A DNA stretch of 64,000 nucleotides, taken from NCBI GenBank assembly GCA_017628205.1, contig JAGBZO010000020.1, forward strand, positions 89,935-153,934, written 5' to 3'. The notes below the pieces were generated by a model, which had not been told where the DNA came from, made no database searches, and worked only from the letters and a program-made list of their open reading frames with translations. How positions within the stretch are numbered: the first letter of the stretch is position 1; each line of letters opens with the position of its first letter. The position numbers and the translations under genes were made by a program. Below, one piece after another: positions 17,720 to 20,859 of this stretch. The DNA is from Duodenibacillus sp. (GTDB lineage: Bacteria; Pseudomonadota; Gammaproteobacteria; Burkholderiales; Burkholderiaceae_F).

Positions 17720-18781
17720 TTAGATGTTGCGGCTGCGGCGATTACGGACGGCATGGGCCAGCTTTTGAAGCAGTACCACGCTGTCTTCCCATCCCAAGCA
17801 CGCATCAGTAACGGATTGTCCGTAGGTGAGCGCTTTTCCGTCGACGATGTCTTGGCGGCCTTCAACCAAGTGAGATTCGATCATGACGCCGAAAATGGCG
17901 GAATTGCCGTTGCTCACTTGTTCGCAAATGTCTTCAACAACCGCGATTTGGTTTTTGCAAATCTTACGGGAGTTCGAGTGTGAAGCGTCGATCATAATCG
18001 CTTCGCGATGACCGGCAGATCGCAACATTTCCTGGGCCTTGGCAACGCTTTGTGCATCGAAATTCGGCTCCTTGCCTCCGCGCAGAATGATGTGGCAGTC
18101 TTCGTTGCCCGAGGTGGTGACAATGGCGGAAATGCCTCCCTTAGTGACGGATAAGAAGGAGTGGTGGTGTTCAGCCGCGCCGATGGCATCGACGGCGATT
18201 TTGATGTCGCCATTGGTTGCGTTTTTAAATCCGACGGGGCAAGACAAACCGCTGGCCAATTCGCGGTGAACTTGACTTTCGGTCGTTCGGGCGCCGATGG
18301 CCCCCCAGCTGACCAAGTCGGCGATGTATTGCGGGGTGATCATGTCGAGGTATTCGACGCCGGTCGGCAATTCCATATTGTTGATGTCGAGAATCAACTG
18401 ACGGGCCACTCGCAAGCCGTGATTGATACGGCAGGATCCGTCGAGATCGGGGTCGTTGATCAGTCCCTTCCACCCGACGGTCGTACGCGGTTTTTCAAAG
18501 TAGACGCGCATCACGATTTCCAGTTCTCCCTGCAGTTTGCGACGCAGTTCGCTCAAACGGGTGGCGTATTCGATCGCCGCCTTCGGGTCGTGAATGGAGC
18601 ACGGACCGATGACGACGACCATGCGATCATCTTTGCCGTGCAAAATGTCGTGAATAGCGGAACGGCAACGATAAACGGTGGAAGCGGCTGCATCGTCACA
18701 AGGGAACTCACGGATGAGATGGGCCGGGGGAGTCAATTCACGGATCTCTTTGATTCGAGTGTCGTCAGTGGAGTAACGCAT
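17720..18781 (-). CDS. aroG: 3-deoxy-7-phosphoheptulonate (DAHP) synthase, class I
   Basis: First enzyme of the shikimate pathway, joining phosphoenolpyruvate and erythrose 4-phosphate. About 353 residues starting MRYSTDDTRIKEI, with the type I-alpha signatures VIGPCSIHDP, MRVYFEKPRTTVGWKGLINDP, VGFKNATNGD and the C-terminal metal region. The ATG at 18781 follows AAGGAATCC. Sequence alone does not show whether it is the Phe-, Tyr- or Trp-sensitive isozyme, but the leader upstream encodes a Phe/Tyr-rich peptide, so control by those amino acids is likely. Gene symbol aroG is used for the family (aroF/aroH are possible). Confidence 0.93.
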   Translation of the reverse strand: MRYSTDDTRIKEIRELTPPAHLIREFPCDDAAASTVYRCRSAIHDILHGKDDRMVVVIGPCSIHDPKAAIEYATRLSELRRKLQGELEIVMRVYFEKPRTTVGWKGLINDPDLDGSCRINHGLRVARQLILDINNMELPTGVEYLDMITPQYIADLVSWGAIGARTTESQVHRELASGLSCPVGFKNATNGDIKIAVDAIGAAEHHHSFLSVTKGGISAIVTTSGNEDCHIILRGGKEPNFDAQSVAKAQEMLRSAGHREAIMIDASHSNSRKICKNQIAVVEDICEQVSNGNSAIFGVMIESHLVEGRQDIVDGKALTYGQSVTDACLGWEDSVVLLQKLAHAVRNRRSRNI

Positions 18782-18835: not shown

Positions 18836-18869
18836 AAAAAAACCGCCGAGCTATGACGCCTGGCGGTTT
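18836..18869 (-). terminator. Attenuator terminator in the aroG leader
   Basis: On the minus strand an AAACCGCC arm, a 14-base loop and GGCGGTTT form an 8-bp stem directly followed by a T-run, 55 bases before the aroG start and 20 bases after the leader-peptide stop. Being between promoter and gene, it would abort transcription unless an upstream alternative pairing forms. A GGCGG stretch in the leader-peptide coding region can pair with the CCGCC arm, and AGCTTTTA in the Phe/Tyr codon run can pair with TAAAAGCT just after the stop codon. Those pairings are read by eye. Confidence 0.8.
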
Positions 18870-18889
18870 GTTTGGTTCCGTAAGAGCTT

Positions 18890-18967
18890 TTATTCGTACG
18901 CGCTTACCCCTTCCGCCGACGAGCAGAAATACAAGTAAAAGCTAAAGCTAAATCGTACGTGGGTCAT
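18890..18967 (-). CDS. Phe/Tyr-rich leader peptide of aroG
   Basis: 25-codon open frame (ATG at 18967, TAA at 18890) encoding a peptide that starts MTHVRFSFSFYLYFC. Residues 6-14 contain four Phe and two Tyr; a third Tyr is at position 24. A GAGAG ribosome site lies six bases upstream. Together with the terminator immediately downstream this is the layout of an amino-acid attenuator of the pheL type, sensing Phe/Tyr-tRNA charging to set DAHP synthase expression. The peptide has no function of its own beyond translation. It is too short for routine gene finding. Confidence 0.78.
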   Translation of the reverse strand: MTHVRFSFSFYLYFCSSAEGVSAYE

Positions 18968-19023: not shown

Positions 19024-19052
19024 ACTCTAGCGGTAACTTTCAAAGAATGCAA
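19024..19052 (-). promoter_or_regulatory. Candidate promoter of aroG leader
   Basis: On the minus strand TTGCAT and TAGAGT are separated by 17 bases, about 57 bases before the leader-peptide start. Both hexamers are imperfect. The surrounding AT-rich divergent region (18970-19140) must also hold the promoter of the rightward hydrolase gene. Confidence 0.35.
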
Positions 19053-19140
19053 ATAAATTTAACCCCTAAATACAAGTGCTTAGGTTGTTTTTTATAGATG
19101 AAACGGACTTAAAATAATCACTGTTGAAAGGAATACTTAT

Positions 19141-20118
19141 ATGCCGTTGGTAGAGTCTGAATACAGGGCCCCTAGATGGTTGCGCGGCGGACATTTGCAA
19201 ACGATCGTTCCGGCCAAGTTTTTTTCAAGACCGAGCGTCGAGTATCGTCGAGAATTGGTGGAAACGCCTGACGGTGACGTACGGGCGTTTGATTGGGTGC
19301 AAAACGAACCGTCGGATCCGTCGGCTCCCGTTCTAGTGCATTTTCACGGGCTGGAGGGGTCGAGTCGAAGTCACTACGCCGAGATGTTGATGCATTCCGT
19401 CGCCCAAAGAGGATGGCGCGGCGTGGTCGCGCAGTTTCGAGGGTGTGGCGGAGTTTCCAACCGTTTGCCTCGAGCCTATTTTGCCGGGGATGTCGACGAC
19501 GCTCAATGGGCTCTCGATTTAGTGCACGATCGATTTAAGGACGCGCCGATTTTTGCTGTTGGGGTGAGTTTGGGAGGCAATCAACTGGCCAAACTATTGG
19601 GCGATCGACCGACTCAAATATCGTATGTGCAAGCGGCGGCCAGTATTTCGGCGCCGGTTGATTTGGTTGCCGGCAGCGAAAATTTGCGAGACGGTTTCAA
19701 CCGACTGTATGCGGCCAACTTTTTGTCAACCTTGCGGGAGAAAGTCAAAGAGAAGGCCGCGCTTTTTCCCGGATTGATTGATTATGCGGCTGCTCTCAAG
19801 AGCAAAACGTTGTATGAGTTTGACGAAGCGTTTACGGCGCCTCTTCACGGTTTTTCCACTGCCATGGAGTATTGGACGGCGTGTTCCGCAAAACAGGTAT
19901 TAAAAGATGTTAAAACGCCTCTTTTGTTGTTAAATGCGAAGAATGATCCATTTCTCCCTGCTTGGGCGTTGCCAACGCTGGACGATGTCAGTGAAAGCGT
20001 TTGGTTGGAACAACCCGAAGAGGGCGGCCACGTCGGTTTTCCAACGGGAGGATTTCCTGGCGAAATGAACTTCTTGCCCAACAGAGTTTTGAGTTTCCTC
20101 GAGCGTTTTTTGCCCTAG
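19141..20118 (+). CDS. YheT-family alpha/beta hydrolase
   Basis: 325-residue hydrolase of the YheT/ABHD group. It has the N-terminal RAPRWLRGGHLQTIVPAKFF block typical of YheT, the oxyanion segment FHGLEGSSRSHY, the nucleophile elbow VGVSLGGNQ, and late in the protein the Asp of LLLNAKNDPFLP and a His in GGHVGFP. All catalytic residues are present. The ATG follows AAGGA by eight bases. Substrate unknown; related proteins act on esters. It is monocistronic with a strong terminator. Confidence 0.88.
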   Translation: MPLVESEYRAPRWLRGGHLQTIVPAKFFSRPSVEYRRELVETPDGDVRAFDWVQNEPSDPSAPVLVHFHGLEGSSRSHYAEMLMHSVAQRGWRGVVAQFRGCGGVSNRLPRAYFAGDVDDAQWALDLVHDRFKDAPIFAVGVSLGGNQLAKLLGDRPTQISYVQAAASISAPVDLVAGSENLRDGFNRLYAANFLSTLREKVKEKAALFPGLIDYAAALKSKTLYEFDEAFTAPLHGFSTAMEYWTACSAKQVLKDVKTPLLLLNAKNDPFLPAWALPTLDDVSESVWLEQPEEGGHVGFPTGGFPGEMNFLPNRVLSFLERFLP

Positions 20119-20133: not shown

Positions 20134-20174
20134 AAAACAAACGGATTGACGTCTAAGGTCAATCCGTTTGTTTT
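20134..20174. terminator. Bidirectional terminator, YheT-like/YecA-like genes
   Basis: Perfect 17-base arms (AAAACAAACGGATTGAC and its complement) around a 7-base loop, between two convergent genes, with A- and T-rich ends serving both strands. Confidence 0.92.
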
Positions 20175-20193: not shown

Positions 20194-20859
20194 TTAGCGA
20201 CGCTTGTTCGAGCGGGGACGCTGTTGTTTTTGTTGCGCGGCAATGTCTTCGGCGCGCGTGACTTCGGCAATTTCTTGAACACAGGCTTCAAGATCGGCCA
20301 CGGCTTCGTCCAAATTTAAAAAGGCGACGGATTCGTCAATATCGCTGAGAATCGAGTGCGTCTCTTCATCGGCGTCTTCTTCGTCTTTGGTTTCGTAACG
20401 AAGAATGCCGACCAAGGCGGCCTGAACGGCTTTACTTTGGTTCTTGAGTAACTCGGGCCACATGGAGCAAGCGGCGGAGAAGCCGTTGGAAAAGCTGCTC
20501 AACGCTTCGATGCTTTCGGGGCCGTCGACGGGATTGCCTTCGTCGTCTTCCGCTTCGTAAATGATCGGATCAATCGGCTTTTCGTTCAAAATGGCGGCCT
20601 CGAGTTGGCCCCCTCGACGCAAAATGAGTTTGCGAAGCTCGCTTTGTTCCGGCTCTTTCAAATGAGCACGTTCACGCCCTTCCATATCGAAAATCAAGGG
20701 CATCCAATCTTGCTGCTCGGGAGGGTTCTTCATCAGCGCCAAGGCGGTCAGATAACCGTCTAGCATGTCCGCTTCCATAGGGATGAAGGGTTCGGGAATC
20801 TTTGCAAGAAGCTCGCCCAAACGATCGATTTCATCAAGAGAAAGAGTCGCGAGAGCCAT
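20194..20859 (-). CDS. YecA/YgfB-family (UPF0149) protein
   Basis: 221-residue protein of the UPF0149 group. The hallmark is the N-terminal helical region with PMEADMLDGYLTALALMKNPPEQQDWMPLIF and the central ALSSFSNGFSAACSMWPELL. It ends in a Gln/Arg-rich basic tail (KQQRPRSNKRR) instead of the SEC-C zinc motif found in some members. Molecular role is unknown. It starts 26 bases after ptsI and is probably the last gene of the PTS operon. Confidence 0.82.
   Translation of the reverse strand: MALATLSLDEIDRLGELLAKIPEPFIPMEADMLDGYLTALALMKNPPEQQDWMPLIFDMEGRERAHLKEPEQSELRKLILRRGGQLEAAILNEKPIDPIIYEAEDDEGNPVDGPESIEALSSFSNGFSAACSMWPELLKNQSKAVQAALVGILRYETKDEEDADEETHSILSDIDESVAFLNLDEAVADLEACVQEIAEVTRAEDIAAQQKQQRPRSNKRR

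Follow-up and report, generated by a model that had tools for sequence, protein, structure and literature searches.

A probable ribosome-mediated attenuator ahead of the DAHP synthase gene aroG in Duodenibacillus and its relatives

The carbon destined for all three aromatic amino acids is committed at DAHP synthase, which E. coli controls through TyrR and TrpR. Both regulators are described as highly conserved in many gammaproteobacterial groups and absent in other classes (PMC5343134). How might the enzyme be controlled elsewhere? The question is raised by the aroG locus of Duodenibacillus sp., which we studied in a stretch of 64,000 nucleotides (the window) from contig JAGBZO010000020.1 of assembly GCA_017628205.1. 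A short leader and a switchable terminator very probably turn on this gene when Phe or Tyr run short, and we are confident in reading the aroG leader as a ribosome-mediated transcription attenuator that would respond to the supply of charged tRNA-Phe and tRNA-Tyr. In 24 leader-bearing genomes, we found no TyrR domain and no TrpR match over the cut-off (four matches below it came from one family), with E. coli as a positive control for both. The element offers an explanation for how DAHP synthase may be controlled without TyrR and TrpR in many beta-, alpha- and xanthomonad bacteria.

On the minus strand of the window, a 25-codon open reading frame (ORF) is followed by 20 nt, a stem-loop (18869-18840), a T run to 18836 and aroG, whose ATG at 18781 has AAAGGA upstream (Table 1). 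Codons 6-14 of the ORF translate as F S F S F Y L Y F, so that the candidate regulatory codons are F6, F8, F10, Y11, Y13 and F14. The original prediction for this DNA had placed here a 25-residue leader peptide with four Phe and two Tyr within nine codons, a ribosome site, and an intrinsic terminator 20 nt after the leader stop and ahead of aroG. The peptide, the aromatic run and the terminator are all present as described, and the leader's ribosome site, GAGAG, is weak. The CCGCC at 18866-18862 is able to pair either with the GGCGG at 18917-18913, within the leader ORF, or with the GGCGG at 18847-18843, and this alternative pairing, which had also been proposed, covaries across relatives, as discussed later. 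A simple terminator scan of both strands listed no terminator; it missed the one before aroG because only loops of up to 8 were allowed and the stem bears a mismatch after its first seven pairs. The fold of the whole leader has a z of -1.51, and 13 of 200 shuffles fold equally well. The next gene upstream of the leader, an alpha/beta hydrolase at 19141-20118 on the plus strand, is divergent from aroG, which leaves no gene directly upstream on the minus strand for the terminator to serve. At the far end of the hydrolase gene, between it and a convergent UPF0149 gene (20194-20859, minus strand), there is a perfect 17-bp inverted repeat with a 7-nt loop at 20134-20174 (AAAACAAACGGATTGAC / GTCAATCCGTTTGTTTT), which looks like a shared two-way terminator.

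Table 1. Features of the aroG leader region, in coordinates of the window
Feature	Position	Strand	Details or basis
Candidate -35 of the leader promoter, TTTGCA	19048..19053	-	Weak alone
Candidate -10, TAGAGT, 56 nt before the leader ATG	19024..19029	-	Weak
Leader peptide ORF, MTHVRFSFSFYLYFCSSAEGVSAYE	18890..18967	-	ATG at 18967, stop ending at 18890; 25 codons
Putative protector hairpin 1:2, aromatic codons paired with GGCGGAAGGGGTAAG	18903..18939	-	Segment fold, -11.9 kcal/mol
Region 2, GGCGG within the leader ORF	18913..18917	-	Alignment A1, columns 92-96
Inner antiterminator stem, GG-GTAAG with CTTAC-GGAA-CC	18874..18909	-	2:3 segment fold, -15.0 kcal/mol
Region 3, CCGCC, common to antiterminator and terminator	18862..18866	-	Alignment and covariation
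Intrinsic terminator, stem-loop with T7	18836..18869	-	Stem-loop 18869-18840, seven T at 18842-18836; covariation
aroG, type I-alpha DAHP synthase, 353 aa, Ser211	17720..18781	-	NCBIfam NF006723, 593.8 bits (cut-off 568)

Taken alone, the leader ORF is only moderately surprising, since an ORF that is equally aromatic (F/Y/W in ten codons) turns up in 37 of 3000 dinucleotide shuffles of the intergenic region (359 nt), and upstream of aroG in the window the antisense strand has a count of five, against six in the leader. These shuffles are what speaks for a plain intrinsic terminator preceded by a chance ORF, which would give a constant reduction of aroG expression or insulate the gene. Such an arrangement is highly improbable, both because no gene directly upstream on this strand needs a terminator and because the leader and its helices are conserved and covary. 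In fact, it is by its conservation in relatives rather than by its own composition that the predicted leader peptide is made secure.

To follow this conservation, we took the best 80 AroG loci of a longer list from named genomes and 29 further best-match loci from 61 genomes of the window's family, and scanned 400 nt upstream for ORFs with five or more F/Y/W in ten codons. Such an ORF is found in 74 of the 110 assessed loci, while the antisense strand of the same regions reaches five in only 6 of 110. A terminator lies within the last 230 nt in 72 of 111 loci, nearly always written CCGCC...GGCGG (L056 and L048 differ slightly, and that of L068 is of another type). Across these loci, the one is rarely seen without the other: only L063, L079 and L082 among the 74 have the leader without the terminator, and only L052 among the 72 has a terminator with a leader below the threshold, at four. 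Among the 30 best-matching family loci (L001 and L083-L111), leader, antiterminator and terminator occur in all 29 that could be assessed, L084 being left aside because its contig ends after 37 nt. The named carriers include Burkholderia, Paraburkholderia, Caballeronia, Cupriavidus, Massilia, Janthinobacterium and Oxalobacter, as well as Xanthomonas, Stenotrophomonas, Rhodanobacter, Devosia and one Hyphomicrobiales MAG; leaders from xanthomonads, alphaproteobacteria and many betaproteobacteria also contain Trp codons. A terminator of this type was not found in the fetched relatives from Enterobacterales, Vibrionaceae, Pasteurellaceae, Shewanella and Colwellia, or in those from Azoarcus, Thauera, Rhodocyclus, Chitinimonas, Chitinilyticum and Ferrovum, and several betaproteobacterial relatives have no leader (for instance, Azoarcus L066, Thauera L070, Chitinimonas L060 and L069, and Ferrovum L077). 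Thus, the Phe/Tyr run and the terminator, whose absence from relatives the original prediction had named as refuting, are conserved.

For comparisons between leaders, we dropped five of the 74 loci by hand, namely the three without a terminator, L068, and L004, in which the terminator is present but the ORF continues through it as far as -37. Two more, L042 and L048, were lost because the terminator pattern missed both. The resulting set has 67 leaders (38 among the best 80 named relatives and 29 family loci), of which 63 form alignment A1, with the near copies L010, L088, L094 and L095 left out. The rows of A1 were selected by the aromatic threshold and the 3' arm of the terminator, and region 2 played no part. 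The GGCGG of region 2 is nevertheless almost invariant there, with G, G, C, G and G in 63, 63, 61, 61 and 63 of the 63 rows. The antiterminator, taken as this GGCGG and three flanking pairs with region 3, is paired in 88.0% of its cells and shows a double change in 33 cells, where shuffles give 15.3, with a covariation of 0.147 against 0.075, a value that none of 500 shuffles reaches. The terminator has 92.2% of its cells paired and a covariation of 0.140 against 0.070 (0 of 500 shuffles), with the limit that the rows had been selected in part by its 3' arm. In contrast, registers slid by 1-3 columns are only 17-54% paired. Two of the five covariation measures for the antiterminator are not above the shuffles (pairs with a double change, 395 of 500, and further pair types, 90 of 500), because five of its eight pairs are nearly invariant, and since the rows of A1 are related, the shuffles overstate significance. 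RNAalifold returns the terminator only, because one nested consensus cannot hold both exclusive helices. When the 2:3 segment is folded alone, the five core pairs form in 65 of the 67 leaders and four of the five in the other two (L040 and L075); the middle part of the segment also tends to pair internally, with a mean z of -0.70 against mononucleotide shuffles and negative values in 54 of 67.

The choice of codons points in the same direction. We recoded each leader synonymously with the codon usage of its own aroG, and this weakened the antiterminator in 65 of 67 leaders (mean z -1.77, 24 reaching 5%), so that in these leaders codon choice favours the antiterminator. The corresponding effect on the protector hairpin is smaller: recoding weakens it in 44 of 67 (mean z -0.85, 19 reaching 5%), with z at zero or above in 23 of 67. 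This signal comes mostly from the window's family, and the hairpin is present in most of that family and in the window, where its z against synonymous recodings is -1.47. In each of the 67 leaders, 8-17 nt separate the end of the last aromatic codon from GGCGG, which is about the reach of a ribosome stalled on that codon.

It could also be supposed that a free amino acid makes the nascent leader peptide arrest its own ribosome. TnaC is an arrest peptide of this sort, and many of the leaders share a PLAE(R)-like stretch downstream of the aromatic run. Nonetheless, the aromatic residues differ between leaders in both order and identity, and so does the frame in which GGCGG is read, which is frame 2 in 60 leaders, frame 1 in 6 and frame 0 in 1, giving, for example, HRRDE in L050 and NRRKM in L105. 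Given the changing frame, it is the RNA rather than the peptide that is conserved at GGCGG, and we consider control by an arrest peptide very unlikely.

By its sequence, the locus has an ORF with codons for products of the pathway, a terminator before the structural gene and a conserved, mutually exclusive antiterminator, three features of ribosome-mediated attenuators. The layout of ribosome-mediated attenuation that had been predicted is supported by the conserved run, the terminator and the covarying helices, and attenuation as a reading of the leader is well supported by anatomy, conservation, helices, codon choice and position before DAHP synthase together. In the mechanism that we infer, transcription would start upstream of the leader ORF. 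With plentiful charged tRNAs, the ribosome would run through codons 6-14 to the stop, where region 2 would be masked or back in the 1:2 hairpin, leaving region 3 to pair with region 4; this 3:4 pairing is the terminator, at which RNA polymerase would stop before aroG in the cell. If Phe or Tyr were short, the ribosome would be expected to stall within the aromatic run and break region 1, so that GGCGG would be free to pair with CCGCC and aroG would be transcribed. The response to Phe and Tyr, and which of the two might dominate it, are likewise inferred.

We represented these states by a model in which the ribosome footprint extends over 15 nt, counted from where the P codon begins; it provides an equilibrium estimate, not kinetics. 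For the window, the modelled antiterminator probability is 0.00 without a ribosome, rises to 0.26, 0.31 and 0.51 with the A site at F6, F8 and F10, respectively, and is 1.00 for codons 11-13, including Y11 and Y13. F14 scores 0 because the antiterminator is excluded by construction once region 2 is covered. The best aromatic position is above the ribosome-free value in 67 of 67 leaders. The ribosome-free mean is 0.20 in 28 family leaders and 0.39 in the other 39, and in L099, L106 and L108 the antiterminator is already formed without a ribosome in the model (0.98, 0.88 and 0.98).

For the start of transcription, the window offers the candidate TTTGCA-N18-TAGAGT, which has 8 of 12 matches and is weaker than the pattern of its relatives; the same-genus locus L087 carries identical hexamers 58 nt from its ATG. 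In 66 of the 67 leaders, we searched the 120 nt before the leader for TTGCC[AG]-N16-18-TAnnnT or TATAAA, and found it in 23, with none on the antisense strand and a mean of 0.06 in shuffles. In L050, L102, L103 and L104, the likely -10 ends 5-9 nt before the leader ATG, a distance so short that it suggests leaderless translation of the leader peptide in some lineages. By eye, a -10 likewise lies about 5-9 nt before the leader ATG in L032, L043 and L053.

An important question is whether both amino acids are sensed. The same attenuator may respond to Phe only, with the Tyr codons as tolerated bystanders, which we regard as possible though rather unlikely. In Corynebacterium glutamicum, the aroR leader, with Phe-Tyr-Phe, is described in the portion of the paper at hand as responding to Phe and not to Tyr (PMC11802643), and the AroG of the window carries Ser211, the residue assigned to Phe-type enzymes. 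The ribosome model of the window, on the other hand, is strongest at Y11 and Y13, and in a neighbouring genus (g2) the Tyr codons look selected because the copies of the enzyme with Gly211 have Tyr-dominated leaders. All five g2 genomes have two DAHP synthases of this type. One copy has a Tyr-rich leader, MLNHVYGAYYYYGFFRLPAERVLWCA in G045 and G019 and MSFASDFYYYGYYLYRPRGGRVRRI in G001 and G040, while the other copy in these four genomes has a Phe-rich one (MNYRARFYFTFNFFPC... or MIRSARFCFSFGFFRC...). Residue 211 has been assigned in yeast enzymes, by plate assays reported in the part of the source available, to Phe sensitivity when Ser and to Tyr sensitivity when Gly (PMC10349828); E. coli AroG has Ser and AroF has Gly. 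In all four genomes that hold two leaders, Gly211 goes with the Tyr-rich leader and Ser211 with the Phe-rich one. G031, the fifth genome, is different: its Gly copy (L157) has neither an aromatic-rich leader nor this terminator, and the Ser copy keeps a Phe/Tyr leader and the terminator. The two G001 copies are sisters in the tree (99/98) and the G045 copies are not; within the G001 and G040 pairs, identity is 92-100% in every block of 105 nt but the first, at 81-83%. Two histories would account for this, a second duplication or a gene conversion that left the leader and residue 211 untouched. Since this pattern comes from four genomes and one or two events, it is a strong hint, not proof.

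A bolder proposal is that leader codons and allosteric site are tuned together (Gly211 enzymes acquiring or keeping Tyr-rich leaders, Ser211 enzymes keeping Phe-rich ones, and a third type, Ala211, having Phe/Tyr/Trp leaders), to which we give even chances of being right. If it were true, transcription and feedback inhibition would listen to the same end products. Four of the seven Gly211 enzymes have a Tyr-rich leader, and three (the first copy of G031, L002 and L038) lack an aromatic-rich one. L002, on contig C50 of the window's own genome (85.66% complete), is a second DAHP synthase, 49% identical to the first and with Gly at 211, and is possibly a tyrosine-type isozyme under other control. 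In a table of residue 211 for 112 leaders, some of which may be one species in two collections, Trp occurs in the 12-residue leader core of 17 of 17 leaders with Ala211 and 33 of 92 with Ser; we set this link aside, as it is confounded by ancestry: L045, L142 and L147 have FYW leaders of this kind with Ser. Nor did we take Ser211 as proof of Phe sensitivity, given that E. coli AroH, annotated as Trp-sensitive, also has Ser. Genomes in which the enzyme is duplicated, with one Tyr-rich and one Phe-rich leader, offer a natural experiment on the reprogramming of sensor specificity through codon changes.

How widespread is the element? We ran a covariance model of the element (R1) on genome samples that overlap in part. 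At E 1e-3, it has matches in 60 of 200 genomes of the order, and in 47 of these the match spans the full model length and exceeds 38 bits; the shorter matches are probably ordinary terminators. The class sample has matches in 5 of 274 genomes and the phylum sample in 34 of 299, both at E 1e-5, and at 1e-4 the model matches all ten genomes of the window's genus once each. A DAHP synthase alignment starts 40-128 nt downstream of all 45 loci that we fetched from the order, class and phylum samples (five from genomes already used, and with lower-scoring matches outside the set); wherever its locus was read, then, the attenuator precedes a DAHP synthase of type I-alpha. Within the family, the enzyme is found at 60% identity or more in 41 of 61 genomes, and R1 matches 37 of these 41; the leader of G021, which gave no match, was seen directly as L109, and G003, G020 and G032 (3 of the 41) have the type I-alpha enzyme and no leader. 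As a separate observation, G058, a genome without a type I-alpha DAHP synthase match, holds a decayed R1 copy at L193:871-1007, in which the terminator is kept and the aromatic frame is broken, and which looks like a relic attenuator; the 219-codon ORF that follows it resembles, by eye, a response regulator.

A metabolite-binding riboswitch or a T-box, in place of a translated leader, could equally have a terminator and an alternative helix. Nevertheless, Rfam 15 gave no family at gathering score for the window or eight loci from the window and its relatives, and the best match below threshold is itself a leader-peptide family (RF01859, Phe_leader, model positions 1-125 of 125, E 0.23), so we hold a riboswitch or T-box to be extremely improbable. 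Overall, the chance ORF, the riboswitch or T-box, and the arrest peptide were rejected on conservation, covariation, the Rfam result and the varying GGCGG frame.

The original prediction had stressed an attenuator on the first enzyme of the pathway. We do find one before DAHP synthase, but it is not unprecedented, because the aroR-aroF attenuator of C. glutamicum, a leader peptide with stalling on regulatory codons before DAHP synthase, has already been described, as far as the passages available show (PMC11802643, PMC4046766). Both are Phe/Tyr leader peptides before this enzyme; the C. glutamicum one belongs to an actinobacterium and has one three-residue run, in contrast to 5-9 aromatic residues in ten codons (five being our threshold), conserved GGCGG/CCGCC helices, several proteobacterial lineages and some Trp codons here. 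The uORFC-13-1 motif before aroF, with 24 examples from Acholeplasma and environmental sequences, is also similar in the part of the source at hand, with a candidate uORF that has at least one Phe codon, a terminator and DAHP synthase downstream, and differs from the window leader in showing a possible Phe run only; the same source mentions that attenuation-like control of E. coli aroF was hypothesised earlier (PMC8632094). For Shewanella, regulatory RNAs have been predicted before aroF and aroH, and a table cites a tyr-tRNA-sensing attenuator for aroF (PMC2659441). RNA-level control of DAHP synthase genes was thus proposed there too, as a computational prediction with no leader peptide described in the passages at hand, and our Shewanella relatives L047 and L074 are without a terminator of the aroG type. 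Our literature search, within the texts available, found no aroG leader of these lineages, and older surveys could contain one.

Among classical systems, pheL-pheA (RF01859) shares the Phe-rich leader, the alternative helices and the terminator, and differs in that the gene here is aroG, Tyr codons are present too, and the window leader scores 22.1 bits against a gathering score of 55. In the ilvGMEDA and thrABC leaders, one leader carries codons for several end products of a branched pathway, a design that the aroG leader shares, although the pathways differ. Because attenuators of DAHP synthase have been described or proposed elsewhere, what is new is the family and the apparent tuning between leader and allostery; the aroG element is apparently a widespread and unregistered family of a classical mechanism.
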